Below are positions 1 to 63,139 of a DNA stretch of 64,000 bases, piece after piece (the first letter of the stretch is position 1; each line of letters starts with the position of its first letter). The stretch comes from Tribonema minus (taxonomy: Eukaryota > Sar > Xanthophyceae > Tribonematales > Tribonemataceae). The DNA is taken from the NCBI GenBank assembly GCA_017506865.1, contig JAFCMP010000046.1, positions 62,001 to 126,000 of the forward strand. Direction: 5' to 3'. Below the pieces are notes generated by a model. That model made no database searches, had not been told where the DNA came from, and saw only the letters and a list, made by a program, of their open reading frames with translations. The position numbers were made by a program, and so were the translations under genes.

Positions 1-1037
1 GCGCGTCCGATGGCGTTTCTGGCGCTGCGCGTGCGCGCGTGCTGAGCACCGATGACAGATATGCTGAGCGCTGCGCGGAACGATGCCGCCGATGGGCCAC
101 ACGCAGGTGCGTGGGGAATGCGCGCGCATCGAAATGTAAGCATGCGCACAACTGAGTGCTGCTGCTGGCGCTGCTGCTGGCGCTGATGCTGCCGTCTCGC
201 ACGCTTTCGTGAGTGCTCGGAGCGACCAGCCTGGGGGAAAATGCGATCAGCTTCGCGCTGCACGCGAGCGCGTGCGCGTGCGAAAGGGGCTGCCGCATCT
301 GTCGCAAACGCTATGCGGAGTGCCCGCAGCCGGCGCCTCGGTTCGCGCATCTGTGCCTGAGCGCTGCCTGAATAAGCACCAATCAGTGCTCAACAACGCT
401 GGTGAGGAGAGAGCGACCCCCAGCAACGGTACCCCGCAGTGTGCCGCCACCTGCTACACTCGCCCATAGTGCCTCGCCGGATGGTAGACGGTGCGTGGCG
501 GAGCGCGCGAACCCTAACCCTAACCCTGAGGTGCCCTAACCCTAACCCTAAGGTGCCCAACCAGCTCTTGAGGTCCGTTCTGACCGCACAACGATCGGCC
601 CAACGTGTGCGAACGCTATCCCCAATTCTAAGGTGCTTGACCAGGTCCTGAGGTCTGTCTTGAACGCACAACTATAAACCCATGTAGCGCATGTGCAGGG
701 CTTGATGCGGTGCTTGCCGCGCTCCGCGCACAATCACGGCGGCATGCATTCCGTAGTTTAGTGCACAACGCGCGCTCGCTGAGCTGTGCCGCGCCCGCGG
801 TGGCGCCCCAGCGCAACCTGCCGGTGCAGCGCGCCGCCCGCCTCAGTAGACTTCAAGTGCAGAACTTCTAATTCAGAACTTCAAGTAGCGTGGAGCGTCG
901 CCTCTCACCTGACGCTGATGCGCACGCTGCACGGCGGCGACGCGCCCTTGAACTGCTGTGAGGAGACTTCAAGCAAAACTTCAAGTATACAACTTCAACT
1001 ACATAACTTCAAGTAGGGTGCGAGCGTCGCCGCTCAC
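1..1037. other. Downstream intron sequence of the HSP110 gene
   Basis: No exon is recognisable. About 905-960 is a roughly 90% identical copy of the last 50 bases of the exon ending at 1038, with its donor. A TTAGGG-type block is at 511-552, and several ACTTCAAG motifs lie at 849-1015. Remaining chaperone exons may be hidden here or lie beyond the window. Confidence 0.5.
511..552. repeat. Interstitial telomere-type repeat
   Basis: Two runs of CCCTAA units separated by a short spacer, on the plus strand, so TTAGGG in the chaperone transcript. Confidence 0.85.
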
Positions 1038-4000
1038 CTGACATTGATGCGCACGCTGCACGGCGGCGACACGCCCTTGAACTGCTGCGGGATGTCGATA
1101 CGGTAAGTGGCAATCTCCAGGGGCGCGCCGGGGGGCAGCAGGCTGGGGTCGTCGTAAACCGCCTGCGTCGCGGTACAAGAGGAGGTGCGCGCGTCGGGCG
1201 GGAGTGTAAGGAAGGCCGCGCATGTGCACACGTGAAAGGAAACGCGTCAAGGGTAGGGTATCAGCTTCATGCGTGCCTCAAAGAGCCGTGTAGATGCTTG
1301 CTTCTGGCTTCGCTCACTCAGTTCTGATCCCATCATGCACGAGAACCGGTCGCAGGTGCACTCAGAGCGGTACGGGGAGGTGCATGCATCGGGCGGGCAG
1401 TGTAAGGGCGCGCATGTGCACACGCGAAAGGAAATGCGTCAAGGGTAGGTACGGTATCAGCTTCACATGCGCCTCTGGCAGTTGCGTAGACGCTTGCTCC
1501 TGGCTTCACTCAATGGTTTCTATTCTAGGCTCATCATGCATGAGAAACGGTCGCAGGCGAACTCGGAGCTGCCAGCCGCGCACAGAAATATTTGTGGCCC
1601 ACCAAGAGTGCAAACTGGCGCACATCGCCCTGCTAACCCTAACCCTAACCCTAAACCTAGCCCTAGCCATGCAGGCACATCACATGACGGCCGAGTGCGA
1701 GGCACTTCACCTGCCGCTGTTTGCTGGACCAATGTTGAGTCACGGGCATCGTCAACCAGCGGCAGCGGTTGCGACGGCAGCAGCAGCATCGGCGGCGGCG
1801 GCAGCGGCAGCAGCAGCGGCGGTGCTGCCGCTGCAAGCGCCATCAACTCGTGACTAGGAAGGTGGCGTCACGGCGCTGGCGAGGTCTCTTGGGTCCCAAC
1901 AAGGAGGCGTGGGTGGCCTCATCTGTCAAATTCAAGCAGCAGCGCTGCGCTCCACTGACAAGGTGCCAGCAGCCCCGCGCAAGCGCTGCTAATCGCTGAA
2001 CTGACGTATTGGGGCCATCACGCTGTCGCTCAACTCCAGGGTGAAAGGCTGGGCTGCGGTGCCCTAGCATCAGGCCTGCGATCGCTCACCTTGAGTGTGA
2101 AAGGCTGGTTGCGCTTCAGCGTGAAGCGCCGCGTCCGCGGGCTGTCGCCGTTGCGGTGGAACACCATGGTCGAGTTGCCGCTCTCCTCCGCCTCCTCGCC
2201 GTCTGTAAAGGCGTACAGCATGCCAGCAGTAGGGGGGGGGGGGGGGTTAGTGCTCTGGCAGGCATCTACTCTTCAGCCGGAGCCTGGCACACAATACGCT
2301 GACACTGAGCTGAGCCCGAAGCCTCCTGTGACTCTGACTCTGACTCATGATCCCAGACCATGATCCCAGACCATGCCAACCCCAAATCGTGATCATAACT
2401 CTGGCTTTGAATCTGAGTCACCGGCTTCGTCATTTGCGTCCGGCACGGCGGCACCAGCTTGCCAAGGCCCTAGCGCTACTCGTGACTCTGACTTTGGAGA
2501 GTCAGATGACTCTGAGTCTGACTCATCGGCCTCGTTTTTCGTCTCCGGCGCCGCGGCGCTGTCGTCCGACGGCGCCCGGTCCCACACCCTGCGCACCGGG
2601 TACCTGCTCGCCAAAGACCCTAGGCCCTACTCGCGACTCAGACCTAGGTGATTCAGATGACTCTGAGTCAGACGCATATGCCTCGTCCTTGGCATTTGGC
2701 GCGGCCGCAGCGCTGTCGTGTGACAACGGCGGGTCCCAGACCATGCGCACAAGGTACAGCCTCCACAACGGCGAAGTCCTTCACGCAACTCAGACTTCAG
2801 TGATTCAAATGACTCTGAGTCTGACTCACCGGCCTCGACCTTGGCATCCGGCGCGGCGGCACCGCTGTCGTCCGACGGCGCCGGGTCCCACACCATGCGC
2901 ACGGGGTACGGCACCGCCTCCACGATGGCAAAGTCCTTGACGCGGAAGCGCGAGGACAGGATGGCGCACTGCAGCGCGCAGCCGCGTGCGACAGCCTCGT
3001 CCGCGTTCATGGTGCACGAGAGGCCGTAGTTGATGGCGGCGGGGTCCGTGCGCAGGAGGCCCGCCAGGTGGCGCTTGACGAGGGGGACGCTGCGGGGGGG
3101 GGAGAGGGGTGGGGGGGGAGGGGGGGGGGGGGGGGGGTCAAATGGTGATAGCGACACGCTTCTGTGTAGTGTACGTGATGTACATCAGCAATACACGCTC
3201 AGTGATTTTGTGTGTACGACAGTCCACCAAGCTTTCCTGCTGCAAACACAATCGTACGTGCGATTGTGGAGCGGCAAGGGGGGGGTAATGGGCGGAGCGC
3301 GAGGCTGAACAATGGTAGTTCCTGTTGGACAATGCTGCGAGTGCTGGAAATTTGGTTGGCAAGCTGGTGATGCCGACAGCGCTGCAGGAGTGTGGACCAG
3401 CGCGTCGGGCTGCCGCTGCGGCAAACTGGCTCTGCATGAGCGCACCTTCATGTAGTGAACAGGCAAATGTTATCCGAAGCCGCGAAACTCTTGTTGGCAT
3501 GAGCCTTGACAGGATGTAAGAGAGGACTCTGTCTCACCAACAAGAGCCCAAAGGTGTCGATCTTTACGGTCAGAGTGGCGGCGGCATGCTGCAGCATACG
3601 CGCTTTCCGCGTGCTTTCCTTTACATAGTTTCCAACATGGGGTTAGGGTTACATGCGAGTCATGGTGTGAGCGCTCGATCCACAAGGTTCTGGCCGGAAA
3701 CTCATCGGTCGTGAAGCTCACAAGCCGAGACAGCGGTATGTAGGTATGCTGCAGCATTGCATGTATACATACCAAGTTGCGCCGCCCACGATCTCAATGG
3801 CATCAAGCTGGTCGGCTCCTCAGCGATACGTGCTTGCCGCTTTACCAACATCCATACGCATGAGCTCGATCCAGAACGTTGTGGCCGAAACCTGCTGGCC
3901 ATTGGCAAGACAGAGGCATGTAGGTGTGCTGCAGCATTGCATTCGTACGTACCGTGTCGCGCCGCCCACTATCTCAATGGCGTCGAGCTGGTCGACGGTG

Positions 4001-7000
4001 ACGCCAGCCTCCTTGAGCGCCTGCAGCACGGGCGCGTCGAGCCGTGCCACCAGCGGCGCGATGAGCTTCTCAAACGCCTCCAGCGTGAGGCGCCCGTTGT
4101 AGTCACGCTCCTCCACCAGGCACTCCTGCGCGCGCGACACGGCGTATGCACAGCGATCAGCACATCATGAGTGAGTAGAGATGTCAGAGCAAGATTTGAA
4201 GGGGGTGACGCTCGCCGTAATACAAGCGGCTCAATGAGCTGCTCAAACGCCTCCAGCGTGAGGCGCCCTTTGTGGTTGCGCTCCTCCACCAGGCACTCCT
4301 GCGCGGGGGGGTGATAAAGCGTCGACGAAACCTTTGAGTGAGGCAAGTGCGATTTGGATTCCGCTTTTGTCTGGCGCTCGCGGTGACGCCTGCAATAATA
4401 AGTAATCCAAGAACTCATGTAGTCGCGCTCCTCCACCAGGCACTCCTGCGTGCGCGATGCGACGCACGGGGATAAACGTGTGGAAGGTGAGTGCAGCTGT
4501 CAGAGCAGGATGTGAAGGGGGGGGGGGGCGCTTGCTGTACTACAAACTGTTGACAGTGCCGTTCCCGATGTACATAGTCGCGCGCCGCCACCAGGCACTC
4601 CTGCGCGATGGGGCGGCAGAGCTAGGGGCGCGCATTGGGAGGGGTAGGCGTGATTCGGCAGACGATTCTGCTCATCTGGCGCTTGCGGTAGCGCTCCTAG
4701 TTTTGCTTTTTGAAGATTATTGAACAATTGGGCTCCAGCGCGAGGCGCCCTTGCACACCTCCACCAGGAGGTCCAGCGCAGCTGACACTAACCCTAACCC
4801 TAACCCTAACCAACACTCTCTGCCTCAACTTCAGGCCGACAATGATGCGGCAAAGCTGACGGACATGAGTGCAGGTCCCTTCCGTCAGAACAAGCTCTCA
4901 CGATCGGCGGCGACGCCCGGTTGTCTGAACCTCGACTTCAACCAAGATAAAGTGGTGCCAGCACGGTTTGCGCATGGCCGCCAATGCCTCTAGAGTCCAT
5001 GAAGCAACTTCAAGGGTGAGTGATCGAATGACGCTGAGGCGCCGCTGCTGACTGCTTCGCAGGCAAGGCTGCCTGAATCGCAGCGACGCAGACAGCGCAC
5101 AGCTGCGCAGTTGCAATGCAGCGCTGACACCATAGCCCGGCCTGCATCGATGCTGCTCGGCAAAGCGCGCACAATCCGAGACAGCGGCGGCGGCGCACGC
5201 CCTCAACGGTAACAACGGGCAGGCAGGCGACCGGCACAAGACAGCAGCGGCGGCAACGGCGCGCACTCACAATGTTGACGATGGTGTCCGCCACGCCGAT
5301 GGGGCTGAGCGTCTTCTTGGCGCGCTCCGCAGCATCGAGCAGCTTGATCATGGACTTGTGCGAGTCGCGCGGGTCCTGTAGACACGCACAGAGAGCAGTA
5401 GCAGCTGTTGAGTCCTCTTGTTGCCATGCAGTGCAGCCGGGGCGACATATACGATCCTGAGTGCTGAAATCCTTAGCGCTAACCTTGACTCATATTCTAA
5501 GTGCGGGAAGGCTTACGCCTAACCCTAACCCTAATCCTAGGTTGTTGCGGCGCTGCAGCTGCTGTGCGCGCTGATCAACTTCACGACAGTGCAGTGGGGC
5601 AAGTGTGCTCAGAGGAGTACACACAAATCATGAACCTGTACCTCAGAAGTAAATGCAATCATGCGTCAAAATTGAACTTCACTCGCGCCGCAAGCTGTGC
5701 ACTTAGGTGCATGCCCCACATGCCCCCCCCCCATGACCACCACCCCTCCCCGTAAGTCGCACAGCAACAAGCTTTACCGTGTGATTCACCAGGCCAGACT
5801 CAACCAAACCACTGGTTTGAAACCAGTAACCTGGGCTTCGCCTTGAACTCGCCAGAGAAATACTGAGTGATGGCCAGTCCATACCATGCTCGCTCTCACA
5901 TAACTGCCATGTGCCCAAATGTCACCCGCACCAGGTGCAAAAGCCATAGTCAACGCATGTCCCCCTCTACGATGAGCTCGTGCGCGGTCACCACAAACTT
6001 CACCATGTGACTCACCAGCTTTGCGTTTGCCTTGAAGTCGTCCGACAAGTGCTGAGCGACAGCCCAGTCCGCTCACATGATACTGATATGCGCGCAGTAT
6101 TTATTCGCCTGCACTTGTCTAGGTGCATAAATCACAGTCAACACATGTCCCCTCCGCCATAAGCTCATGCTCCCCTTGTTGTGAAACTTCACGGTGTGAC
6201 TCACCAGCTTGGTATTTGCCTTGAAGTTGTCCGCCAGGTGCTGAGCGATGGCCCAGTCAGCTCAAATGATACTGACACGCGCCTAGTATGAATTCACAAG
6301 TACTAGGTAAATACAGCACAGTCAACACCTGTTGCTTCTGCCGCGGTCACAATCTGACTCACCATTTTGGTCTTTGCCTTGAAGTCGTCCGCCAGGTGCT
6401 GAGCGATGGCCCAGTCCATGTCGCGCCCGCCCAGGTTCCTGTCGTAGCACGTGGACTTGACGGACAGCGCCGCCTGCATCGGCGGCAGACGCACAGCGCA
6501 AGCGATTGAGATTTGGCACGGAGTTGAGAACGCGTTGCCTGCCATCATGCGAAGGCATCAGAGTCGGGTGATGTACGTTGCTGCTTCCACCGACTGGAGC
6601 GATCGCGACAGAGCTGTCTGTGTATGCGCAGCAGCGCTCAACAGCGGCGACAGCCGAGCAGTCCGCTGTCAGACGAGTCAGCGTCAAACTCAAAGTCAAT
6701 AAAGAACATCAGATGTGTGCAAACTTCAAATCGCGGCTGCCCACGCTGAGCGTTGTCAGGCAGCATGAGCTTGAAGATATGCTCGCAATCCTAGTTGAAG
6801 CTACGGTGGATTCTCCCAGGCGCAAGCTTTGTTGCCGTGACGTCTTATCTGCAATGAGCCTTGTTGGCGTCAACTTCAACTTGTACTCGCGGGAACCCTG
6901 TGACGCGGAGTTAGGGTTAGGGTTAGCGCCACATCATCGACGGCGCCAACACACGTACGTTGCTTCCAACCAGAGTTGAAGCTCCCATGGACGAGCGCAA

Positions 7001-10000
7001 CACTCCATTCTGAGGCAGACATTGGCAGGCATTGAGGTGAAGTTGAAATTTATGCCACTAATACAACTTCAACTCACCTGCGTGAACGTGACGACGCTCG
7101 CGCAGAAGCTCGAGTGGCCGAGGTCCAGGAACAGCACCTTGCGTGCGTTGCCGTCAGACGGACACTGGCACGCAGTGAGGTGAAGTTGAAGTTATGCCAC
7201 TAGAACAACTTCAACTCACCTGTGTGAACGTGACGACGCTCGCGCAGAAGCTCCTCCTCACCATGAACCGCGACATGCATACACGCCACGACGTCGACAC
7301 GTCTTCCACGTCATCGACACGACGCTGGGGCTGGCTGGTGAGCATTCCCAGGACCAGCTCGACACTAGGTTTTCTATACAGGCAGGGAGTTGAAGTTGAC
7401 ATTAAGCCACTCACCTGTGTGAAAGTGACGACGCTCGCGCAGAAGCTCGAGTGGCCCAGGTCCAGGAACAGCACCTTGCGCGCGTTGCCGTCGCTGAACT
7501 CGCCCTTTGCTGAGCGGTAGATGCCGTACGCGAGCGCCGTGGCGGTGCTCTCGTGCATGAGGCGCAGGCAGTTGAGGCCGGCGATCTGAACAGCATTCTG
7601 CGAGGGCCACGGTGAGGAGTATGAGATGAGAAATGTAGTTAACGTGTCAATCTCAACAGCATTCTGCACGGGGTCACGGTGATAACCATGAGGTGAACTC
7701 ATGAACTTGACGTATCAAGTTGAACAGCATTATGAGGGGCCACGGTGCGGAGCATGATGCGAGAACATGTAGTTAACGTATCGGTCTGAACAGCATTCTG
7801 CGGGGGGGGAGAGTGACGAAGAACATAGCATGAGGTGAGAAAATGCGGGTGTATCTATGCATTCGTGTCTCTGGAGCATGTGAACGCTTCCATTGAAGAT
7901 CCTCCTTCTGGAGGCAGAGTCCGGGAGAGAGGGTGAGTAATCAACAGCAGATTTCACCGGATGTATTTGTTTCCGGGCCTGCCTTTGTGTGAGGGGTACA
8001 CCAAAGCCTCCCTGCAGGGGCAACGTCTGCAAGCGAAACTGAGTAATCGAGTAGTAAGGTTCATTGAGCAATGCTAGAACAAGGGTTGAAGTACAAAACG
8101 GCTTGACACCCCCAACAACAGCACGTATATATACAGCACTAGTGCCGATGACTGCTGTTGCACTGCGGAAAATTGGATTGCAACCCCATCACAACCCAAT
8201 GGCGTATAAGGCCCTGGAAGAGTAATTGAAGTTTTCCTACTCTACTTGAAGTTTTCCTACTCGCTGAAACCCGCCCCCCCCCCCCCCCACCCCCTGCAGC
8301 ATGCTCAATGTCCACACGTTTGCGGCACTGTTGGCCAACGCAGACCCAGGGCTTGCTGCACGCGGGCGAGCATTCCGCTGGCATCGAAGTGGACCCCACT
8401 GACTCTGGTGACGGTGCTCGTAAGCATGCTGCGGCGCCCCCCCGCCCCGCGCCCCACCCAAGCATACCTACGCATGACCTGCTTTTCGCCGCAGTCCAGT
8501 GCGACACCGCCTGTGGCCGCTGTAGCTCAAAGCCATGCGTAACAAACCCGCACACATGCTGATGTCGACTAACGCCTCAGGCAGCAGTGCTCAATAGCCC
8601 AACACAGCGCGTCGCGGCCGTGTGCCGCCCCGACATGCTGATGCATGTAATACTTCAAGCAAGGGTTCATGCGGCAGAGCTCATTGGGCTGGCAAGTCGC
8701 AGCTGTGCACACACAATCTGTACGCTCGCTGCGCATTACCGTGGGAGCAGTGCTCACCAGTGGGACGCGTAACATCCGCATACCGCGCCGGTACGCTGAC
8801 ACCCGCCTTCAATCATAGTCAGACCAATACATAAACAGCCAACAGTATCTCAAATGATACAGCACGTTGGTCGAGACAACTTCAAGTGGCAGCAGCGCTC
8901 ACCAGCATGGCGTGGCGCATCGCGTCCGTGTACCACCCCGGTATGCTGATGACCGCCTCAGCAACGCTCAGGTCGCTGTTGGCCGCCTTGGCAATGTCCG
9001 CCGCCTTGTTGAGCATCATCGCCACCACCTGCTCCACCGAGAAGAGCACGCTCTCCTCGTTGTACGTCACGCGCACGCCCACGCCGCCCGTCTGCGCGAA
9101 TTGCAGGGGAAAGGGGAAGGGGGGTGTAGTTAATAAGGGTATTTGTGATGCTACAACAGCGCAGTGCTGAGAACCGATGATCACGCTGTTCATTCGCACA
9201 AGCGGTGCGTGTCTGTTGGGGTTCAAGAGAAATGGAGAAAGGAGGGGGGGGAGGGGGGCCGTTTTTGAAGGTTCAATGGTGCTACATGGAACTGTACCAT
9301 GTACCTGTTCAGCGCAGTGCTCAAGCAGTGCCCATGTGGCTCATTTGCGGTCGCCGGCGCGCCACGCCAGAGACTGAGAACAGCGCCTGACACGTGGCAC
9401 TCGGCCACTGCGCCAGCATGACGCATACTTCAGAGCGAACAGTGGCGCCAACGGCGGGACACACAAGCCGCTCGCAGATTTCAAGCAGTCAGACCGCGAA
9501 GCCAGAGCGCATTGCGTCGGTCAACAGGCGCACTTTCTTATCTGACCGCTGCAGCACTCGTGTACATAACATGTGGACAAGTAGATTAGATATGAGTGTA
9601 GCCGTCCGCCATGGGCTGCATGGCCATGTATGCTGCACACTGCAGCGCTGCTGCGCATCAGTACTGCGCAGCAACGTGCTGGCCAATTCATGCGTGCACA
9701 CTTTGAAAACATCAAACTTCAACTTCATGTTTGTGCGCTGCAGGTCAGTTGCATCTGCTGCTTCTTTGACACTTGGAAGAAGTACTTTTGCGGTACACAA
9801 GTACACATGTGAAGTATCTTAATCAGGCACACGTGCAGGTAAATGTCAGGCCGTTCACTCATGCATGGCACCTGAGGCCCCGCCTTTTCAGATCGGACCT
9901 CGACCGGCTGGTGCAGGGGTACTTACTTCCCTGTGTATTGTCACTCTCGCTTTTCAGACAGGCCACAGAGGTACTTGGCCACAACTCTAGTAATCCCAGT

Positions 10001-12198
10001 TTGGGAGTCACGCCCTCAAGCAGCTGCACCAAGCCAGCTCTGCTTGACTAAGGTACTTTGACTTCAAAGCCAGGAATTGTTCTGATTTAAATGCCTGCCC
10101 TGCCTGCTTTCGTCAGCCACTTTGATTGTTGAACTTCACACAGATTGATTGGCTGCAATCTATGACTGCTTGATGTAGTCACCAGGTCTGAAAAAGGCCA
10201 GAGGTTTCATATTGTATGCGTATACTGACAGCGACTCATCAGGTTCTTGAGGACATCAACATGCGAGCCCTGCCCAGCCCAGAGCATACACGTTGATGTG
10301 GGCCTCGGTCGTCTTTACTTACAAGTGTAAACCACCAGACCCCACTTGAGGAACCAGGCTATTTACCAGAATTCAAATTTGCTGCACTGCTTGCGTCAGC
10401 CGCGCTGGGCAGCGCGCGCCGTACCTGCTGCATCAATGTCATGACACAACTGCAACTTCAAGTCCTCCGCCCCCTACCCCCCCTTTCCTGGCCCCCTGCT
10501 CGTGGCAGTCACCTCTGCGCGCTTCTCAAGCACACACGGCATGCGAGCCCGGCAACTACTCTGTGAGAGGAGATTCACATGCCCCTGCACCGAAGCACCC
10601 CCCGCATCTCCGCAGGGTTGCTCGCCTCCGGCGCGCTTGCCCGCACGCGCGCCACGTGACCACGTACTGTATACATTATTGGTGGAAGGCATTCAATTTG
10701 ACGGCTAACCACCCCTTGTCACCTAGAGCTCTCCGATCTTTTGATGCGTATCCATACAACTGTGCGCCTGCCACAAATGCACACCCGCCCCCCCACCCAC
10801 CCCCGCCTCCCCACGCCCCCTTGCCTCCGGGTGTGCTTCTCTGTGGAGAACGGCACGCACGCCAGGTCCGCCTGCAGCTCCAGCTCCGCCTCCAGGCGCT
10901 TCCCCGCACGCGCATCACCTGACCACACAACTGTGTACAACTGTGTCCCTGCCACGAATGACCCCCCCTCCCCCCCTCCCCCCCCCCTGCACGGATCGCT
11001 CACCTCCGGGTGCTTCTGGGCGCGCAGACAACGGCGCGCGCGTCACGCAACCACGCAACTGTGCCCTCGCAATATACAACGATCTTTTGAGCAACTGTGC
11101 CCTCGCAATATATAACGATCTTTTGATTCGTTTTAATACTTCTACAGTCTATATTTCATATAGACCCCCCTTACCTCCGGGTGCTTCTCCGTGGAGAACG
11201 GCACGCGCGCCAGGTCCGCCTGCAGCTCCGGCTCCTCCCACCGGCGCCCCACCATGCGCTTGAGGTCGCGCGCCGTGTTCTTGAAGTTGCTCCGCGAGAT
11301 GGACAGCGCCGCCTCGCCCATAAAGCGCTGTGTGGGGGGGGGCGTATGAGTTCGCAGCAGCAGCGGGCGCAAGTGGGCGAGTGCGCGTGAGTGGCGGTGG
11401 GCGCGCGGCGCCGCGGCGTTGTGTTGGGGATGTGGTGTTGATTTGCGCGCACAGCGGAATTGAAGTTGCGCGCCGGGTGTTGGCCAGCTTACTGTGTTTG
11501 AAACATGTGGTAACGCTGCTGACACCGCAATCTCTCGCACACACCCCGCCATTCTTCTGTGTGAGCGATGCCTGATGCAGTGCGTGCAATCATGCCTCAC
11601 GGAACACCAACAAATGAGGAACCAAAAATACATGTGACGACAGTGAGCATCAAGCATCAGTAATGATGAGGCCCAGAAGAATTCAAAGCTGCCTTTGCGA
11701 GCACACTGGCAGCCTGCACTACAGGTCCACTTCATTCCGATGCTTGTGCCAGCAGCCAAGTACATGGCCACAGCCAAGGGGGCGAATTCTAATGCACAGT
11801 GAGGTTAAGCAGACAGGCGTCCATACAGAAGTTGCAGCCTGTGCTTCAATGAGCTGAAAGCAAACCATAACAGCACTGCAGGTGCCAGAAACGACAAAAG
11901 TGACGCCGAAGGTCGCATCGCCCGCATTGCTGCCTGTTGATAGCTTGAAAGTGCTAACGGCATCAGTGACTAGAAGGCTGCAGCAGCTGTTGCTGACCTG
12001 TGACACCAACATACCATTGATTACCCATGAATGAATGCATGAAGCAACTTGCCCCCATCGCACCTGCTTTCCCTGGAAGGACACCATCGAAGGCGTGCGC
12101 CTGTTGCTGGACTCATTGAGTATGATATCGATGCCTCCCCTGCCAGCCAGACCTATGACGCAGCTGTCATTTCCCAGATCGATACCCACAGAAGACAT
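1038..12198 (-). CDS. HSP110/HSPA4-type Hsp70-family chaperone, 3' end not located
   Basis: Nucleotide-exchange and holdase partner of Hsp70. Exons in transcript order: 12198-12064, 11327-11175, 9091-8903, 7597-7415, 6473-6363, 5375-5271, 4125-3953, 3089-2830, 2202-2090, 1162-1038; every junction is GT-AG and the phases join, giving about 516 residues. The start [19 protein letters not shown] is the Hsp110 form of the first phosphate loop. [15 protein letters not shown] (about 200) is the second phosphate motif, with the Hsp110-type GHS in place of [15 protein letters not shown] (about 345) is the adenosine motif, and [17 protein letters not shown] (about 375) is Hsp110 signature sequence. 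The substrate-binding beta domain follows with an acidic insert. The lid and C-terminus should lie past the last exon; I cannot recognise them in 1-1037. A HSP70 paralog is the alternative, but the motifs favour HSP110. Confidence 0.9.
1633..1666. repeat. Interstitial telomere-type repeat
   Basis: About five CCCTAA-like units, the last ones degenerating to CCCTAG, inside the chaperone intron between exons 9 and 10. Confidence 0.85.
2395..2829 (-). repeat. Tandem copies of exon 8 donor edge (HSP110 gene)
   Basis: Three degraded copies of the last part of the exon ending at 2830, unit about 135 bp, lie directly downstream in transcript direction. Each keeps the Asp/Ser/Ala-rich acidic reading (for example [20 protein letters not shown]) and a GGTGAGTC- or GATGAGTC-like donor. 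They sit where the acidic loop of the beta domain is encoded. Confidence 0.8.
3665..3952 (-). repeat. Copy of exon 7 donor edge (HSP110 gene)
   Basis: The stretch 3777-3818 repeats the end of the exon at 3953-4010 (reverse-strand [13 protein letters not shown] coding sequence), and 3670-3770 repeats the intron sequence at 3862-3950, so a segment of about 190 bp spanning the donor was duplicated. Confidence 0.7.
4126..4770 (-). repeat. Tandem copies of exon 7 acceptor edge (HSP110 gene)
   Basis: Four progressively degraded copies of the acceptor plus exon start, near 4240-4310, 4410-4460, 4570-4612 and 4740-4775. Each contains the plus-strand core ctcctccaccaggcactcc or part of it. They lie upstream of the real exon in transcript direction. 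Confidence 0.85.
4788..4811. repeat. Interstitial telomere-type repeat
   Basis: Four CCCTAA units on the plus strand inside the chaperone intron between exons 6 and 7. Confidence 0.85.
5517..5540. repeat. Interstitial telomere-type repeat
   Basis: About three CCCTAA units plus one CCTAAT variant inside the intron between exons 5 and 6 of the chaperone gene. Confidence 0.8.
5785..6362 (-). repeat. Tandem copies of exon 5 donor edge (HSP110 gene)
   Basis: Units of about 190 bp near 5785-5960, 6005-6140 and 6195-6330 repeat the end of the exon at 6363-6473, including the sequence for [11 protein letters not shown] and the donor, plus a following stretch containing gtcaacac(c/a)tgt. The copies have lost open reading. 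Confidence 0.85.
6911..6926. repeat. Interstitial telomere-type repeat, opposite orientation
   Basis: TTAGGG units on the plus strand, hence CCCTAA in the chaperone transcript, unlike most other blocks in this gene. Confidence 0.75.
7030..7414 (-). repeat. Tandem copies of exon 4 donor edge (HSP110 gene)
   Basis: Two copies at about 7075-7170 and 7205-7260 repeat the exon end at 7415-7480 (coding for [17 protein letters not shown]) with intact CAG/GTGAG donors and the same following intron sequence ttgaagttg. Identity is very high, so these look recent. Confidence 0.9.
7598..7815 (-). repeat. Tandem copies of exon 4 acceptor edge (HSP110 gene)
   Basis: The plus-strand core gaacagcattctg and following ccacggtg recur near 7653, 7727 and 7788. 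They copy the acceptor and first codons (NAVQ) of exon 4 at 7597. Confidence 0.8.
8580..8902 (-). repeat. Degraded copies of exon 3 donor edge (HSP110 gene)
   Basis: Stretches 8585-8650 and 8745-8810 resemble 8895-8965 (end of exon 3 with donor). Both carry a related sequence across the exon/intron boundary, but with many substitutions. Confidence 0.65.
10590..11174 (-). repeat. Degraded copies of exon 2 donor edge (HSP110 gene)
   Basis: The stretch 10815-10920 still reads [17 protein letters not shown] on the minus strand, matching the exon end [17 protein letters not shown]. Shorter related copies are near 10600-10665 and 10990-11035. A further duplicated pair, cgatcttttga with its flank, is at 11060-11130. 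Confidence 0.75.
10676..10750. repeat. Dispersed repeat, copy 1 of 2
   Basis: About 75 bp closely similar to 45050-45122, sharing tggaaggcattc, aatttgac-like and cacctagagctct-like cores in the same orientation. It lies in a chaperone intron; the other copy is in a CNB-gene intron 34 kb away. Confidence 0.7.
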
Positions 12199-13534: not shown

Positions 13535-22993
<9,459 letters not shown>

Positions 22994-25900: not shown

Positions 25901-26112
25901 CGAGCGAGGCAGCGCGATTGTTTTTCACTGCTTGTCAGAGCATTGGCTTGGCCGCTTTTGTTTCTGCAGCACTCTGTTGTCCTTGTGTGTCCTCTGTGTG
26001 TAGCATGTTCGCGTTGTGATCCCAAGCCTGGACGGTTGCATCCTCACTGAGTCTACACCAGCCCTTTTCGCGAAACCTGATCCATTGAATCAATAGCGCA
26101 ACGCGTGCGAAG
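22994..26112. other. Gene-poor stretch between CNOT11 and the MYND gene
   Basis: About 3.1 kb between two divergently transcribed genes, of more moderate GC than the coding parts. I recognise no protein. The longest open frames (for example 24631-25266 minus, 211 codons) lack any familiar motif. One frame at about 24005-24453 plus looks protein-like but is split by a TAG. Promoters of both neighbours should lie at the two ends. Confidence 0.5.
24005..24453 (+). pseudogene. Protein-like reading frame split by a TAG, unidentified
   Basis: A single frame runs from about 24005 to TAG at 24451-24453 with one internal TAG at 24250-24252. The halves read, for example, MGALVREDLDEGQTEMRAW and CVQFVPMAVGHFYYWRAP, a balanced amino-acid mix unlike the Arg/Ala/Cys-rich shadow frames elsewhere. 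No family recognised. It could be a dead gene, a mobile-element remnant or chance. Confidence 0.25.
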
Positions 26113-27054: not shown

Positions 27055-27147
27055 CGCGCGCCGCGCTTCCACCGCTTCCTGGACGGCCAGACGGGGGCGC
27101 GCATAGAGGACGGTGACCTGGCTAACGTTATGGTCACGGACGCGTGA
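27055..27147 (+). other. In-frame continuation of the MYND protein after TGA
   Basis: Thirty codons directly after the TGA read RAPRFHRFLDGQTGARIED and on to VMVTDA, then TGA. This looks like the natural C-terminus, since related proteins from memory have Trp at the stop position (LRW then PRFH-like). It may be a TGG-to-TGA change, readthrough or a sequencing error. Confidence 0.6.
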
Positions 27148-47800: not shown

Positions 47801-50800
47801 CGAGGACCTTCATTTGAAGCTGAGATGTGCTTGCAGGTTTATGTTTACGCAGATGCCAAGACAGAGAAGCTGTCACGTACATATACGCAGGCTGAGAGCG
47901 TGCCAGCTCTGACACTGTCTCTGGCCTGTCTCACAAGCCTACTCACCCCCCGTTGAATGCATACATGCATACCTCGCACTGTTGCCCCATATACCTACCC
48001 ACATTCTATTGAATACATACACACACGAATCACATTGCCCACCCCCTCATTAAATGCATACATGCATACCTTGCGCTGTTGCCCCCATACCTGCCCCCCC
48101 CCCCTTGATGCATACATAAATACCTCACATTGCCCATCCCCTCATGAAATGCATACATGCATACCTCATATGCTGCTCCCATACCTACCTAACCCCTATT
48201 GAATGCATACATGCATACCTCACACATTGCCCACCCCGTTATTATGGAAACGAATCAAAAGATCGTATTATGCATACATGCATACCTTGCGCTGCTGCCC
48301 CAATGCCTACTTGCCGCCATCCAATGCATACAAGTTAGGTGTGATGGCTTAGCCAATTGAAGGTTAGCAACGGGAAGCAAGTCTTTCACCCAAATGAAAT
48401 GCATACAAACATACCTCGCGCTGCTGCCCCGGCATGCTCGGGTCGTGCACGGTGCCCCTATACCTACCTACCCACCTCTATGACATGCATACATACATAC
48501 CTCGCGCTGCTGCCCCGGCACGCTCGGGTCGTGCACGGTGACCTTGCACACGCCCTCCACGATGATGTAGAAGGAGTTGCCGGGCTTGCCCTGCTCGCAG
48601 ATGTAGGCGCCCGGGCGGAAGCTCATCTCCACCAGGGCCTGCCGCGGAGCCAAGCGCACGCGCGCGCGGCAGGGTGAGATGGGGACGGCCGCGCTTCACG
48701 GCATCTGCGCCGCAGTGTCGGGATCTGCACAGCATATTGGGCTTGTTAACTTGCATGCTAACATCTTTTGTCGTGGCGCGCAGTTGCTGCTGACAAATTG
48801 CAGGCGTAGCAGCGCAAGTCTCCTTACAACTAAGTAATGCTCGATTGTGAAGTGCTACGTACAGTTCAAGCGCTTCAAAGTGGTTGTGCGATGCAGTTGA
48901 AGTTAAACTGCTCAGCGTCGGTGCCCTATGCCACGACATGAACTGCACGGTTTCTTCTGGTGTCACAGTGTATTGTAGGGCAGACTCACAACTCAAGACT
49001 CAAGACTCACGGGACCATTGCAGTGCAGACCCATTGCGGTGCACAACACCACGGTCCCGCAAGCTGCAAGTCACAACTTGCAACAAGTTTACCATCGTTT
49101 CAAATGTACAAGACATGCAATGCAGAACACCGCGAAGCTACCCCCTCCCCTCCCCCCACCCCCCCCCAGCCCCGCACCCCCCTACCCCGGCGCACTCACG
49201 CTGGCGACTTGCTCGCGCTGCTCCGCCGGCAGCGGCTCGAACACGGGCACCATGTTGAGCATGGCCAGGCGCGCACGCGCGTGCATGTCTTTTGCGGCGC
49301 TGTGCGCGTCCGCCCCCGGCTGAAGCATGCTGCCGCGCCGCGACGCCGCGGCAGATGGCGCCTGCGACACACACCCACACACAGCGCGATCAGGAAAAAT
49401 GAGTTCCGGGTCAGTGGAAATGACTGACGAGAGGACATGAGGCTTTGGAGGGCAAACGGCGGCAATTTGAAGGCCACGGTGCACACACACACACACACTC
49501 ACTCGTTGTGTGCGCAAAATTGGGGCGTTTTGAAAATGCACTCGTGGAATGATGGTGCAGGCGCGATTGCATGCTGCTGCTGCCGGAAAGCGCGAGGCTT
49601 CGGAGGAAACGCGCTCTGCCGTACAACAGCGCTACGCAGGGCGTAATACTGTGACGCCCGGGTGTGCAGCACAGGCACATGCAATTGCGTGCGTGGGCGC
49701 CAACTGTCAATGCGCGCAGCGTTGTGGCGCTGACGAAGGGATGATGGTCAGAATCATTATAACGCTTTAGTGAACGGCGGATGCAAATGGTATGAAGTTC
49801 GAGGCCCGTCAAGTTGGCCCAGCAACAGGCCGGTGATTGCCGCTGTGCCTATGTCAGTAGCTGAGCCATGCTGCATGGTGAACACGCGCCAGGCGGCGCC
49901 TTCATCATCACATCGTTCAGCGGCGCTGCACCAGCAGCTGCAGCCACCAATGCTACACGACCACTGGCACGGCCTGCTTGCGCGTGGTGCTCACGCCTAC
50001 CGCCGCACCAAACCCCACCCCCAATCCAACTGCCTCCATGGCTAGAGCAAATGAGCCTGACCCTGCCCTCTATCCCACTTGCCTTGTTGTGCGCGCCAAT
50101 GATGGACCTCCGGACAGCCATGTCCTTGGACATCGCAGGGTCCGGTGCACCCTGCCAGCGCGGCGTGCGCGGCCCCTGTGGCAGCAAAAACAAAACGGCA
50201 CGACAGCGCTCAGCAAGGTCTTTATTGATGTCCCTGGGATGATTGGCATACTTTGTGAATCAATGCCATTGGGACAGGAAGAGCGCGCGAGCAGCAACTG
50301 AGAGAGCGGCACGTGCCAGCAAGGAGACAGAGCCTGACATCGCAATTCAAGAGTCGAGTCACCATCTTCTCTCCTGTGCGCCAGTACCAGGGCATGGATC
50401 AGATTCGACTTGACGCAGGCAGGTCATGTGCAATACCTATACGCTGTTGCAACCCGGACCTTGGAGTGGCATGCGCCAGCAAATAACGACGGGGCGTGAG
50501 GCAGATGGGAGTGTTTGAGCTTACAGCTGCTGCCTAGTGAACACCTCGGGACCGATTTGGCATCCCCCCCACCCCCCCTTCCCCCAGTGGGTTACACCTG
50601 CTGCACAGTACGCATCATACATACAATTACACAGCAGGTACGGCACACGTAGCATCAAATAAGCCCACGCCGGCGCACCACAGGCCCACGGTCTCGTGTG
50701 CCTCGCATCAATACTGCAGGCGGCACCAATAATAAACGGAGCTGAGTCCGCCATGGTTGTTGACATCAGCGCCAGCGCATGGCTTCAACTGTGACGCTCC

Positions 50801-53800
50801 GCTGGTGCGCGGGGGTAGCCATCAACGCGCGCAGCATGGTTTTTGAGGGATGCTAGTGCCATTTGTCAGCATGTGCACCGCTAGCGCTCAGCCTGCGCCC
50901 GCCGAAGGCCTGTTTGACCCACTCTGCGCACAGTGCGCTGCGCTCTTCGCAGCCGTAACAGAACGTTTCCACGAGCAGTGAGGTGGCAACCAATGTTGTC
51001 CCTCTCTCATGCCAGGACAACACGCAGCACTTGTGACAACCAGCTCCTGTGTTTTGAGGGTCCATGATCCGTCCAGCTGCCACGATACCACTTGAAGCGC
51101 ACACCCAGCACTGAGCAAGCATAGGTAGGTAGCGCATCGCGCAGCCCTCATACATACCTGCCCGGAAGCAGCGCTGAAGCCCGCGTCCATGAAGAACTCA
51201 AACGGGCCGCGCGCCATCACCAGCAGCTGAGCCCCGCCGCCGCCGCCTTGCGTGGAGCGACGCGGCGGCGCGCGCGGCGGCACTGGCGGCAGCGGCACCG
51301 GCAGCGCTACCGCCGCCGCCGCCGCTATTATCGGCGCCACGCGGTATGTGGCGCAGTGCGGCTCGCCTGTCATGAGCGCCAGGTCGCCGAAAGCGTCGCC
51401 TTTGCGTAGGACGTCCAGCTGGTGCGCGCGCGGGGAGGTTGCAGCGACGGCTTGTGCTTGTTGGGTTTCTCACGTGGCAGCGGATGGTGGTTTGGCTGAG
51501 ACCGACGCTTTCTGACCCTCATGCACTTTGAAGAGAGTATCAGCATCTAAGCGTTTGTGTCATGGTTGCAAGTGGGCAAAGAATGTGAACTAACATGAGC
51601 GTCGCCAGGTCGTTGAAGGCGTCGCCTTTGCGTAGGACGTCCAGCTGGTGCGCACGGGGAGGTTGCAGCGGCGGCTCGCGCTTGACGGGTTTCTCACGTG
51701 GCAGCGGGTGTGTGGTTCGGCTGAGACTGACTCTTTTTGTACCTCTACATCCTTTGAGGTAATGTGCAGCATCTGATAAGGACTGTGTCGTGATTGTACA
51801 CAATTAAGAGTGCATGTTGTCAGCACATGTCGTAACAATGGCGACACAGAGAGAGCGTTCTGTGATCATTGGCCCGTTGAGACTGGAAACAGACAACCAG
51901 CAATCACGCAAACGCCAACATTTCAGCGTGTACACTTTGAGGCGTACGTAGTCAGGGTGTCTGCTGTTGCAGCTCTTTACGACAGGGGGGGGGCTTGTAT
52001 CTAGCAACGCCTGACAGCACACGACGTAAACCACCTGCTCCTGTCACACCTGCCGGCGCAAGAAGCGAGTGGCAATTGATACATTTATAGTGTAGTTGGA
52101 ACAAGTCGACATGAACGCTTAGTACACTACGTGATTACGCTTCAAAATAACAAAAAAGACTTTGCTTGGTCTTTGCTCATCATTTGCTGTCAAAATGGCA
52201 AAAGACGCGGGCAGCATATCGAGCACATGCTCACCTCTTGCAGCTCCTCTGCCCCGCCCTCCCCCTTGGCCTTGCGGAGCACTGTGATACAGCCCGCCGC
52301 CACCACGTACAGCTCCTCGCCAGGCGCGTCCTGTCCATGTTGAACACCACATAGAGCGTTACGTGACATAATGACTGACATTGACGTCAACAGGGGACAT
52401 GAACATCAACAGCTACCATTGACATCGATGGGTGACATAAACATCAACAGGTGACATTGACATCAACAGGTGGCATTGACATCAACAGGTACCATTGACA
52501 TCTGCTAGTGCAGTACCAGCTCTGTAGTCGCTTTGGCACAGTTGCTCAGAGGCGCTGCTGAGTGGGAACACCCATGCGGCTCTGAATTGGCGGCTGCGCT
52601 CGCAACAGTGGTGGTGTAGGTCACAATGGCACTAACTCCATGTGTGGAAGCTGATAGCCTCGGGGGCAAAATGCTGCAATGGTGCGACAGCTGGACAGCG
52701 CTGTAGACACAGAGCAGCACATCGTAAGTCATGCACCAACACTGCAGCTAAACACTGCCTGTATGCCGTTCTGTTGTGATGCTGTCCTCGCCAAGCGACC
52801 CGCGAAGACACGCCACTCTGCCGCACCCGCTGTATCACAAACTTGCAATTTGTGGTTGTCGCGTGTCTCACGAATGCTCTGCGGCGCAAGTGTGTGCTTG
52901 GTCTCTAGGCGGCCGTGACGCAACACACACTGCCTGTACGCCCTGAAACACTCACTGTCAATGCCAGGATTTCACACCATCAGCGATGAAATGCTTGCAC
53001 CTCATAGCCCGGTCAAAGCGCAAAATGACATGAGAATGTCATCAATCAATCACCGCCACACAAGCGAACGTCCGCCAGTGTGGCGTGTTGCACTGTCAGC
53101 CGCACCTGCGTCACAATGACCTCGCCGACGCTGTACTCTCGCTCCTGCATCGCGTCCACGGCCTTTTCCTGCGCGCGCGCGCGAGTGCCGGGTAGGTATA
53201 TGTGCATCAGGCGATGTCAACACACGGCCTGACGTGCCACGACGCACCATCCGACGTTCATGTACGTGTACTGTACAGTCTGGCTTGAGTGAAATACGTG
53301 TAAAAAGCACCGCAGTTGCCATGTCTTGTTAATGCACTCTATATCGAAGTCATGCGCGAATGGCTCCACCAATGGCTGCCTGCTGGTGATTTTTACAGAG
53401 ACAAAACGCGCTGCTGCTCGTTCAGACGTGAGCGGCCCGTTCATTCTGAGACATAAAGCATGCGGCCGACTCTGCTGCAACTACCAGCAATGTGCAGCAT
53501 GCTGGTGCTGCTGTGGCAATCGCACTGCGAAAGAAGAAAAACCCCGGAGGTTTGCGTAGACTCGTGCAAGCACCATCCCGGCTGCAGAAGGAAAGGCTCT
53601 GGAAGCCCTGATGCGGAATTCTTGCAATGCACATCTGTGTGACAATTGCCAACTATGACTTGTGCACACGCACTTAGCATATACTCAGTGAACCTGCACA
53701 CTGGCCGCTGCAACATCATACCACATACAGCGTCGACCAGCACCGCCCCCATGCTGACAATACATGTGTCTCTCACCAACTGCTCCGTGCTCAATGCCCG

Positions 53801-56645: not shown

Positions 56646-56730
56646 GCTGCAGCAACGTCAGGCTTGCTGCCGGTGTAGGAACTTCACAGCTGCTTGTTGA
56701 GCGTCACACACGAGCTGCTGACGACTACAG

Positions 56731-59700: not shown

Positions 59701-62700
59701 TGTGCTGCTGCACAGCAGTGCGGACGCAGAGGTGAGTAGGCTGCCATGGTGGTAACTGCATGCTGCATGATTTGGATGTATTTCACTGACATAGTAGGGC
59801 GCTATGTTGTGCGCGGGCTGCTGCGCTGCAGGCCAGAGCCGGGTGCATGAACACGCAAGGTCATGCTTGGTCGCTGACCGATGCATAGTTGTGCGGCGTA
59901 GTGAGTCCTTTGCGTCACGATTTGGGTATCTTATGTCTTGAAAGCATGCTGTTAGGTGCATGTGTGTTGGCAATCTGCATCAGGATTCCAATCCCAGCAG
60001 CACATCAGCGTCCATAATGGCCGCCGGGTGTGAGCCTCAGCATGTCTCAGAGTGCACTACTTCTGGAACTTCAATCGCTGCAAAAGTGATGTTGTGTATG
60101 CATTCGCAGCAGATCTCCTGACTCCTGTTCCTGTCCCACACGCATGCTGATCACACACACATTCGCAAGTGCTCTCTGACGATCAGCGCCGCTGTAATGT
60201 AGCCAGGAACCGCCGTATTCCCTCACGCTGCTGCAAGCCCCTTTGTTGCGATAGCGCTGCTGCGAAGGCCGCCGCCGTGACACCCCCCCCCCCCGCCACG
60301 CGTGCCCGCTGCACAGGACGACGGTGACGACGACGGCGACGGCGCCGGCGGCTGCGACGACGCGTGCGACGCGGAGAACGACTATGACCTCGCCAATACG
60401 CTCATGCGCCCGGCGCAGGAGACGACGGCGTACGCGTACAGCAGCGCGCTGCGCGAGAGCGAGCTCGCCGCGTACGATCAGAGCGGTGAGCGCTGCTGCA
60501 GTGGTGTCATGACCGTGCTGCGGCGGCGCTCACTCCTGTGTTCTAACGATCGGGGGCGCTGTTGCAGGGCTCACTCCTTCAGGCTGTGGCAGGGCTCGCT
60601 TAGGGTTAGGGTTAGGTTTGGGCCTGTTGGCGGCCCCGGTGGGCAGCTGCACCTTCAAAGCGCTGCTGCTGCGGCGGCGTTGCGCGCGCGCACGGACGCG
60701 CTGCGGCGGCGCTCGCTCCGTCGTCCTGACGATCGGGGGGCAGTGTGAACAGGGCTCTCTTCTTCGTCCTGGCAATCGGAGGCGCTGTCGCAGGGCTCAG
60801 TCCTTTAGGCTGTGGCAGGCCTCAGTTGGGTCTAGGGTTAGGGCTAGGCCTGTCGACGGCCCTGGTGCGCAGCTGCTTGTCTAACGAGTTGGTAGAGTCG
60901 GTAGATGCTGCTCTGCCTGGAGCCTTACATATAGTCGCTGAGTGAGTGCAGTTTGCTTTCCGGTCGAGTCACCTAAACGTGTCTGTCACTGTTTCTAAGC
61001 GTCGCTGTCCTCATACAGCGGTGCACAGCGATACCGCTGCCGCGTCCGCGTCCGCGTGAGGCGGGCGAAGGTGCGCAACGCCGTCCGTACTGACAGCGGT
61101 GACGGTTCCGTGCTGTCATGAGGACCGCGCTCATTGTCGGCAGTGCGCATCAAAGCACATCGCGTTTCATCCCCTGCAACAGCGGCTTTGCGCGCCGTAG
61201 ACCGTCGTCGAGCACTGATGGCGCTACCGCTGCGCCCGCCGCTCGCCGCCAGGTGCTGTGAAGCTTCGGCGCATTGGCGCCCGATGAGGTCATCATCGAG
61301 TACGCATAGTCTGTGATGCTCGCCGGCCGCATTCGCAAAGATGCAATGCCTTGGCCGTGGGCTCGCAGTCAATCTCAGTCCGATCGCATGACGTCGCGAT
61401 CTCCCAGCGCCGCCATACGCCGCCGTTTCGCAGCGCTGCAAGGCTCGCAGCGACCGCCACCGTTCTCACCGAAGGCGCAAACCACTCGTGGTGACACAGA
61501 CCACCGACTGCGCATATCGTTGCGCGCCGCTGCAGCCCTCACAAGCACAGCTAAGGACGGCGCCGCGCCGCCGCCGCTGCTGCTGCGCGCCGCCAATTCA
61601 CCGGCGCGCGGCAGGAGGAGGGCCGCCTCATAAATGTTTCTGACCTCTGTGACGCGCGCAGCAACCACTAAATGCAGGCATAGACAACTTCTGGAAATGC
61701 AAACCATCAACCAGGCATCTGTTGTGCGCCGCTGCAGCCCTCGTGAGCACAGCTAAGGACGGCGCCGCGCTGCCGCCGCCGCCGCCGCTACGCGCCGCCA
61801 GTCCACCTGCGCGCGGCAGGAGGAGGGCCACGTTATAGCAGTATATGTTCGGAGCTCTGTGACGTGCACAGCAACCACTAATCGCAGGCATCACCAACTC
61901 GTGGTAATGCAACCCATCAACCACGCATCTCGTTGCGCGCCGCTGCAGCCCTCGCCAAGGACGGCGCCGCGCTGTCGCTGCCGCCGCCGCGCGCCGCGCT
62001 CGCGCGCCGCCAGTCCACCGGCACGCGGCAGGAGGAGGGGCGCCTCGACGCGCCCGTGCCGCCGGCGCCGCCGCTGTCGTCCGACGCGCTGTCGGCGTTC
62101 GGCGTGCACGACCCGCAGTGCGGCCTGCACGATGCCGAGGTATGTACTGCGTTTTCATGTGTGTTGTGCGCTGCATGCGCCGTCCGTCGTCGCCGGCTTG
62201 CGTGTGCGCCGGAGAGCAGCCGCTCACGCTGTTGGATGGTGCACGGCAGTGCCGCTGTCGTCCGACGCGCTGTCGGCGTTCGCCGTGCAAGACCCTCAGT
62301 GCGGCTTGCTTGATGCCGAGGTATATAACACTGCATGTTCACGTGCGTTGTGTGCTGTGCTGCGCGCGCGGTACGTCGCTGGCCCGCGTGCGTGCGCCGG
62401 AGAGCAGCAAACTCATGCTGCTGGTTGGTGCGCTGTCGGCGTTTGGCGTGCACGACCGGGCGTGCGGCCTGCACGATGCCGAGGTACTTCGCAGTATACA
62501 ACACAGCGTTTTCATATGTGCGCTGCGTTGCGTGCTGCATGCGGCACGTCGCTGGCGCGTGCGCGCGCTGGAGAGCAGCAACGCATGCTGTTGAGTGGTG
62601 CGCGGCGGCGCTGCTGCCGCACTTGGCGGCAAAACGTGCGTTGTCAGTGCGCAATTTGCTTGATACTTTCCGCGCGGAGCCTCCGACTGAGATCGATGGA

Positions 62701-63139
62701 ATGGTTCTGGTTGCACCTCAAGGCCCAGCTGCCAACCTTTCGCCACTGCCATCGCCAAAACTGCGACGCCCGCCGACCACAATACGCACCTCATGGCGCG
62801 ACAGCAAGCATTAATTGCAGCCCGCGCCGATGCCCGACTGCTTCCTTCTGATCGACTTCTGCCGATAGGCCCCTGCAATGAGCGCTGTCAAATATGTTCA
62901 CAACAGCCTATTCCCTCCAACAGGTCCCTGCGATGAGCGCCGTCAGATATGTTCACATCAGCCTATGCCCTTCATTGATAATGCTGCCCTGCTGTGCGTG
63001 CGCGCGCGCGCAGGTGCACGAGGCGACGCGGCTGCTGGTGAACGAGCTTGTGCCGACGTTCGCGGAGGAGTGGCTGGCCAAGTGCTACTGGGAGCCGGCG
63101 CAGCGCGCGAGCACGTGGGCGGAGGCCGTCGCGATACAG
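56731..63139 (+). CDS. CLU-domain (clustered mitochondria / TIF31) protein, partial at both ends
   Basis: CLU proteins control mitochondrial distribution and bind mRNAs and ribosomes of mitochondrial proteins. Exons: 56731-56925, 57222-57299, 57588-57831, 58267-58500, 58997-59731, 60317-60485, 61949-62139, 63014-63139; all phases join. Domain signature in order: LSFDDWTNRLLQVAKMPEDS and DFISAAVTYGRTIIS, then GPYDGSDEAAGKALNNDLKG, LQALIDYK/GFRMHAQAQL, LRCGSCDAGATV, DVEGHRGTDGNLYV, ARVFPPESPLYTRHL, FWRLLRPEYVRERG, and ATRLLVNELVPTFAEEW. Between PPES and FWRLLRPE sits an Ala/Gly-rich insert, and a second one follows. The true start is uncertain: the first exon either begins at an acceptor at 56731 or at Met 56777. 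The C-terminal TPR part should lie beyond 64000. Confidence 0.88.
58501..58670 (+). repeat. Copies of exon 4 donor edge (CLU gene)
   Basis: gggaacctgtacgtg/gtgagtggggagcgctgctg at 58488-58520 recurs as gggaacctatacgtgttgagtggggagcgctgctg at 58579-58613, followed by a (ctg)n-rich expansion and the same gtgtaactg tail. Confidence 0.9.
60599..60620 (+). repeat. Telomere-type repeat in CLU intron
   Basis: TTAGGG units in transcript orientation. A second, degenerate block lies at 60831-60847 (CTAGGGTTAGGGCTAGG). Confidence 0.8.
61530..61948 (+). repeat. Copies of exon 7 acceptor edge (CLU gene)
   Basis: Two upstream copies, 61525-61700 and 61720-61905, repeat 61930-62040: cgccgctgcagccctc, aaggacggcgccgcgc, gcggcaggaggaggg. 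Each keeps the GCTGCAG/CC acceptor and is nearly 200 bp long. Confidence 0.92.
62140..62495 (+). repeat. Copies of exon 7 donor edge (CLU gene)
   Basis: Two downstream copies near 62250-62325 and 62425-62490 repeat the exon end at 62070-62140 (gacgcgctgtcggcgttcg, gtgcggcctgcacgatgccg) and its GTATG or GTACTT donor, with about 180 bp period. Confidence 0.93.
62873..62975 (+). repeat. 50-bp tandem duplication before CLU exon 8
   Basis: cccctgcaatgagcgctgtc and aaatatgttcacaacagcct recur as ccctgcgatgagcgccgtc and agatatgttcacatcagcct. Confidence 0.9.

Follow-up and report, generated by a model that had tools for sequence, protein, structure and literature searches.

Partial tandem copies of exon edges on the intron side of splice junctions in Tribonema minus

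How might an intron come to hold fragments of the exon beside it? This question is raised by a 64,000-nucleotide stretch of the Tribonema minus genome (GenBank assembly GCA_017506865.1, contig JAFCMP010000046.1, positions 62,001 to 126,000 of the forward strand; hereafter the window), in which a preliminary description had noticed introns that carry degraded copies of the adjacent exon end together with its splice site. When the window was compared with itself by BLAST, 54 repeat pairs were obtained, of which 53 were local and direct, one was direct and distant, and none was inverted. Self-comparison and exon-only tests with reversed and wrong-side controls, applied in the window and in other genes of the sampled genome (158 Mb, 554 contigs, eukaryotic), confirmed that the exon-edge copies are real. 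They probably result from frequent, random, short tandem duplication, in which those duplications that cross a junction persist, as the additional copy is spliced out. The earlier interpretation is partly supported.

Exon positions were fixed by homology, so that the gene structure remained independent of the repeats. Our worked example is an HSP110/SSE1-type HSP70 gene on the minus strand, which runs from 12198 down to about 2830 and in which Pfam and solved HSP110/SSE1 sequences located seven exon cores. Exon 1 (12064-12198), placed by matches to Protein Data Bank sequences and by its splice sites, starts at the ATG, and its donor has no detectable copy. Exons 2 (11175-11327), 3 (8903-9091), 4 (7415-7597), 5 (6363-6473) and 7 (3953-4125) are based on homology and on the codon/splice model described below, as is the exon 8 region (2830-3089), where homology covers 2963-3025 and the edges are predicted. 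Most edges of this gene bear copies on the intron side. Donor copies lie downstream of exons 2 (two copies), 4 (two), 5 (three) and 7, and the acceptor of exon 7 has four copies, all upstream. One exon 2 copy (10816-10913; self-BLAST and edge alignment) comprises 85 nt of exon and 9 nt of intron, with the donor GT changed to GC, and both exon 4 copies (7169-7253 and 7026-7155; edge alignment) retain an intact GTGAGT. Edge alignment placed the exon 5 copies at 6189-6258 and 6000-6070, with a third further downstream, and their offsets of 158, 347 and 537 are near multiples. The exon 7 acceptor copies occupy 4214-4773, with shifts of 173, 320, 475 and 648, and the donor copy of the same exon lies at 3728-3814 (both from self-BLAST and edge alignment). 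The exon 3 donor copy (8580-8643) is degraded and weak, scoring 48 or 44 in different runs against a stricter threshold of 47, under which two of the eight edges in the four fully mapped introns pass. Two tandem arrays were found by Tandem Repeats Finder (TRF) and self-BLAST: a mainly intronic 66-bp array on the acceptor side of exon 4 (7584-7806), which includes too little exon for the exon-only test (score 27), and an array with a period of about 150 on the donor side of exon 8 (2450-2829).

Pfam scans covered the translated window outside 1-10 kb of the plus strand and 40-43 kb and 53-54 kb of both strands. The codon/splice model, whose training set was drawn from homology-mapped exons of mostly other genes but included the four HSP110 introns of the window, predicted 55 exons, five of which are HSP110 exons with the same edges as in the homology mapping. 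The 39 predictions that scored >12 entered an edge test in which exon sequence alone served as the query and a copy had to score >40. Copies were found on the intron side at 21 of the 78 edges (15/39 donors and 6/39 acceptors). On the wrong side the same query found a copy at none of the 78 edges, none had a copy in its own flank when this was reversed, and about 0.1% of random window stretches pass the threshold. Eighteen of the affected edges are on the minus strand and three on the plus strand, in agreement with the proposal of twenty or more edges on both strands. The same proposal spoke of five unrelated genes; here the Pfam-named genes with edge copies are HSP110 and a cNMP-binding gene, and the figure of five is unverified, as the remaining affected exons are unnamed predictions. 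The CNOT11, CLU and MYND exons of the window yielded no exon-only copy above the threshold. Between 21 and 43 kb, copies were found at one of 22 edges despite the exons predicted there, whereas the adjoining stretches are duplication-rich, and this contrast recurs between genes elsewhere.

Does the pattern extend beyond the window? This had been set beforehand as the test of the claim. We searched the genome with three Pfam families, namely chaperonin, MCM and kinesin (for which 122 of 191 candidates in the table were scored), and took out eight hidden Markov model rows recognised as partial copies before exon mapping. Among 88 neighbouring exon pairs, 57 were kept and 31 were dropped, either for want of an acceptable junction pair or because the profile gap was too large; GT and AG were exclusively allowed at the junctions, and all 57 introns were fitted as GT-AG. 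These introns come from 25 sequence blocks, counted as 23 genes, and do not include those of HSP110. As queries we took up to 80 nt of exon sequence at each edge, compared them with the intron at that edge and set the cut-off at the 99.9% level obtained with introns from other genes. Copies were present at 28 of the 114 edges (17/57 donors and 11/57 acceptors), in 22 of the 57 introns and 11 of the 23 genes, so that the pattern holds beyond the window as far as it was sampled; with reversed introns, none of the 114 edges passed.

The position of the copies follows a strict rule. Twenty-nine exons had both introns known (26 from other genes and three from HSP110), and copies were found on the right side at 15 of their 58 edges and on the wrong side at none of the 58. 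A protein-level search returned 13 overlapping pairs, nine of which were clear pairs of an exon and a partial copy; in all nine, a copy that lies upstream has its start in common with the exon, and one that lies downstream its end. Of the four pairs left unscored, one joined two copies, another joined adjacent exons, and two included a stop-bearing match. The direction rule of the preliminary description therefore stands, and it is what splicing would leave; we ascribe it to a splicing filter and not to a directed mechanism. Local pairs within 1.5 kb (E 1e-6; 273,136 bp) were likewise all direct, 307 against no inverted pair. The stronger statement that introns are built from edge copies did not hold: recognisable local direct duplication of any kind makes up 29.4% of the bases in the 57 introns (0 in shuffled introns), and 35 of the 57 have no edge copy. 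Introns with edge copies are longer than those without (median 895 vs 649 bp, P 0.008), which agrees with the suggestion that the copies explain large introns, but longer introns also give copies more room. Copy density varies among gene blocks beyond chance (P 0.002), contrary to a uniform genome-wide process. Donor copies exceed acceptor copies (32 vs 17, P 0.044), an excess that fits, if weakly, a preferential use of the donor that is transcribed first.

The exon part of the copies measures 21-112 nt (median 49.5). It reaches the 3′ end of the exon in 25 of 26 donor-side copies and the 5′ end in 10 of 12 acceptor-side copies, and in none of the 38 does it span a whole exon; the copies therefore cannot replace an exon. 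Adjoining intron was duplicated along with the exon part (flank z>3 in 21 of 33), and whole-unit alignments agree. Measured at 33 edges, the distance from a junction to its nearest copy is 79-302 bp; the copies lie inside introns of 372-2083 bp (30 edges). A period of 60-190 bp and one to six copies had been proposed; the distances found cover a wider range, and one gene has seven copies. TRF arrays at exon edges have periods of 66-210 bp. As head-to-tail direct copies with a regular period, such arrays are minisatellites, while many edges have one copy alone. The GT or AG is retained in 47 of 55 alignable copies, and the splice consensus of the copies is somewhat weaker than that of the real site under a scoring model trained on real sites. 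Identity to the exon is typically 80-97%, with independent changes, in arrays with spacers. Two events appear recent: all 66 aligned exon bases are identical in one and all 45 in the other, which also has a 2-nt indel, and in both cases another copy lies nearer to the edge. The idea of continuing growth is based on these few identical or near-identical copies and not on strain variation. No breakpoint motif or microhomology was obvious by eye in the copy contexts.

Is duplication aimed at the junctions, or are the copies themselves of use? Edge-targeted duplication at first received support. When repeats were sought in intron sequence only, 46 families were obtained, of which 21 include an exon edge where 9.5 are expected (P 4e-5); when contact with a junction was strictly required, 18 of 49 families had it against 9.9 expected. 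A mechanism that duplicates preferentially at junctions, through transcription, R-loops or exon-positioned nucleosomes, for example, would produce such an excess, and the surplus of donor over acceptor copies is also in its favour. When the families were divided, however, the excess was found in those with multiple copies (15/22 vs 3.7 expected), whereas families with a single repeat pair include an edge about as often as random placement would give (6/24 vs 5.8 expected), and a null that spans whole arrays accounts for the total. These results weakened the targeting reading, which we now regard as unlikely. It is less likely still that the copies function as alternative exon ends that some transcripts use and that are maintained as coding sequence. 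Exon-copy differences are indeed concentrated at third codon positions (26/23/106 at positions 1/2/3), the splice dinucleotides are mostly kept, and one copy in an MCM gene has 11 synonymous changes and no others. When changes were polarised, which needs at least two copies per edge and so leaves out single copies, the exon branch showed 1/0/19 changes, but those unique to the copies were spread as 12/11/19 (near) and 37/29/44 (far), together 49/40/63, with a mild third-position lean. Moreover, the shift from real to copied junction is in frame in 22 of 66 cases, exactly one third, as chance would give; stops are present in 14 of these 22 extensions; no copy holds a whole exon; and the retention of GT or AG is, by our estimate, about that expected at 90% identity per base. 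Coding constraint as a general rule for the copies, suggested by the raw third-position excess and the all-synonymous MCM copy, was rejected on the polarised changes and the frame test. Splicing into the copies from inside the exon was also considered, but by eye an AG precedes some donor copies only, so this is not general. We read the exon as being under coding constraint and the copies as nearly free, decaying by-products, with the caveats that single copies are unpolarised and that the spacers decay faster than so simple a model would give.

Two further explanations concern the origin of the sequences. That the copies are artefacts of assembly or haplotype merging is very improbable. Some contigs are redundant, and C70 and C489 (L083 and L084) share 1,066 aligned bases, including two LHC exons, at 100% identity, one of these contigs being 11.8 kb long; this pair represents either a redundant contig or a very recent duplication, and as the one pair of matching contigs compared, it showed no allelic differences. 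The edge copies, however, are diverged, carry independent changes and occur in arrays with spacers in 11 of 23 sampled genes, and an array-rich 2-kb stretch of the window matches itself alone in the genome at the sensitivity of that search. It is also improbable, though not to the same degree, that the introns themselves are new, having arisen from duplicated AGGT-containing exon segments or from introner elements. Tandem genomic duplication is, in the cited passages, an accepted source of introns (PMC3443670, PMC4974935), but the nearest copies here lie away from their own junction within longer introns and not at the opposite splice site, and introns of different genes have little in common (four high-scoring segment pairs of 49-81 bp among 61 introns). 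Introners and introner-like elements resemble our case as large-scale growth of intron-related sequence, but they form dispersed families common to many introns, whereas the copies described here are local to each locus; an introner origin, which calls for similar sequence in introns of unrelated genes, was rejected on the strength of those few segment pairs. Internal exon duplication, including mutually exclusive exons, likewise places duplicated coding sequence beside an exon. It involves a complete exon with both splice sites and a kept frame; here the edges alone are copied, the frame is not kept, and this candidate was discarded as well.

How, then, does the pattern relate to known intron evolution? 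Earlier work includes Rogers 1989, Hellsten 2011 and Gao & Lynch 2009. Three papers recognise tandem genomic duplication as a source of new introns and describe cases in ATP2A1, a potato RdRp gene, Drosophila and fission yeast (PMC3443670, PMC2891723, PMC4974935). As in those cases, we find local direct repeats of exon-derived sequence and splice sites that are hidden by splicing. There, a duplicated AGGT segment makes a new intron bounded by its two copies; here, the copies of one edge lengthen existing introns, repeatedly, at about a quarter of the tested edges. Copies that bound newly created introns are not the pattern seen, as the nearest copies stay inside the intron, and no search was aimed at older creation events. 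The same potato gene has an 83-bp intronic tandem duplication that leaves the gene structure unchanged (PMC4974935), a unit of similar size and equally silent effect, but as described it is single and lies within the intron, whereas the units here take in exon edges and splice sites, form arrays and occur in many genes. The pattern described here belongs with tandem genomic duplication as a mode of intron evolution, as a variant in which introns already present become longer. We found no description of the edge-copy pattern by title or abstract in the open-licence literature, subscription papers and preprints being outside our reach.

We propose that the pattern would have arisen as follows. 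Units roughly 75-200 bp long would often be duplicated in tandem at short range in this genome. Within a coding exon, such an event would as a rule harm the protein and be lost, whereas one across a donor or acceptor would leave a second exon end with a splice site. Provided that splicing continues at the junction that adjoins the remainder of the exon, the added copy would leave with the intron and the mRNA would be unchanged. The copy would then decay nearly neutrally, as the polarised substitutions indicate, the intron would have gained one unit, and repeated rounds would yield arrays. Random duplication with a splicing filter, followed by later growth of the arrays that hold an exon edge, is the simplest reading of the data; the later growth is its novel element and is unproved. 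Several observations weigh against this account. The excess of edge-spanning families depends on the null, for which 9.5, 11.6 (without a detection limit) or 21.1 (with the whole-array span) are expected against 21 observed. The spacers between copies are more diverged and richer in indels than the exon-derived part, and four of 33 flanks have z<2; this decay exceeds the simplest neutral model, and rate heterogeneity, ascertainment and conversion from the exon are possible, unseparated sources. Twelve of the 25 gene segments bear no edge copy. In addition, the third-position excess of the nearest copies (37/28/113) is greater than a simple 2:1 expectation and can be accommodated only with a higher mutation rate at third positions.

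The remaining edge copies of the window, identified by self-BLAST, are on the minus strand unless stated. Copy extents support a donor-edge copy (850-958, offset 129) of the model-predicted exon 1038-1162; an upstream acceptor-side array (16361-17013) and a donor-side copy (15806-15908, offset 235) of exon 16084-16258, for which the exon-only test also found copies at both sides of the model prediction; and donor-side (19907-19943) and acceptor-side (20702-20886) copies of predicted exon 20047-20235. The exon-only test supports donor-edge or donor-side copies of predicted exons 18537-18728 (18352-18427), 43871-44025 (several, 43415-43819), 46409-46582 (46160-46308) and 47343-47489 (47074-47207), of the Pfam-identified cNMP-binding exon 48501-48638 (48394-48457), and an acceptor-side copy (51594-51745) of predicted exon 51158-51418. 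On the plus strand, the same test supports an acceptor-side copy (32042-32085) of predicted exon 32242-32381, the sole edge copy found in 21-43 kb, and acceptor-side (61484-61897) and donor-side (62251-62619) arrays of predicted exon 61949-62139.

Other repeats were also observed. A 14-bp minisatellite of about eight units (window 40499-40635) has a consensus that includes the donor-like word CAGGTGA. Short interstitial telomere-like CCCTAA tracts lie at window positions 512-562, 1633-1665, 43132-43163 and 43819-43857, and such words are frequent in other loci too. The motif ACTTCAA/TTGAAGT occurs 229 times in 194 kb of window and loci, against about 14.5 expected from base composition, and in mapped genes it is found 71 times in 48 kb of intron and eight times in 11 kb of exon. 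Stretches of 58-81 bp common to introns of otherwise unrelated genes (C516, C445) may represent a dispersed element, as may a 66-bp pair inside the window (10683-10748 and 45051-45116). The whole genome has 92 LHC exon matches; one LHC exon best matches fucoxanthin chlorophyll a/c-binding proteins and another the entry LHCI-11. One genome search gave no match to the RuBisCO small subunit, whose short exons could escape it. Together, these plastid gene families point to a non-green alga, probably one with chlorophyll c. Rfam and tRNA scans of the window gave no matches.

What might such copies mean for the growth of introns? Arrays at edges are more often multi-copy than those internal to introns, and the conserved exon half may supply homology for re-duplication. 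We tentatively raise the possibility, which we hold to be doubtful, that exon edges act as permanent seeds: duplications would start anywhere, but those containing an edge would be amplified again and again, since selection holds their exon half intact and it goes on serving as a matching template, whereas purely intronic copies drift; introns would ratchet outward from their exons. If this is true, decoy splice sites would be left in chains, and the spliceosome would have to reject them. The lengthening of introns can seldom be followed, since the sequence gained either defies recognition or derives from transposons. Here, each piece gained has a recognisable source in the neighbouring exon, against which it can be dated, and the pieces can be counted. 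A single genome therefore allows direct measurement of intron growth, of the neutral decay of splice sites and of how the spliceosome chooses between true and decoy sites.

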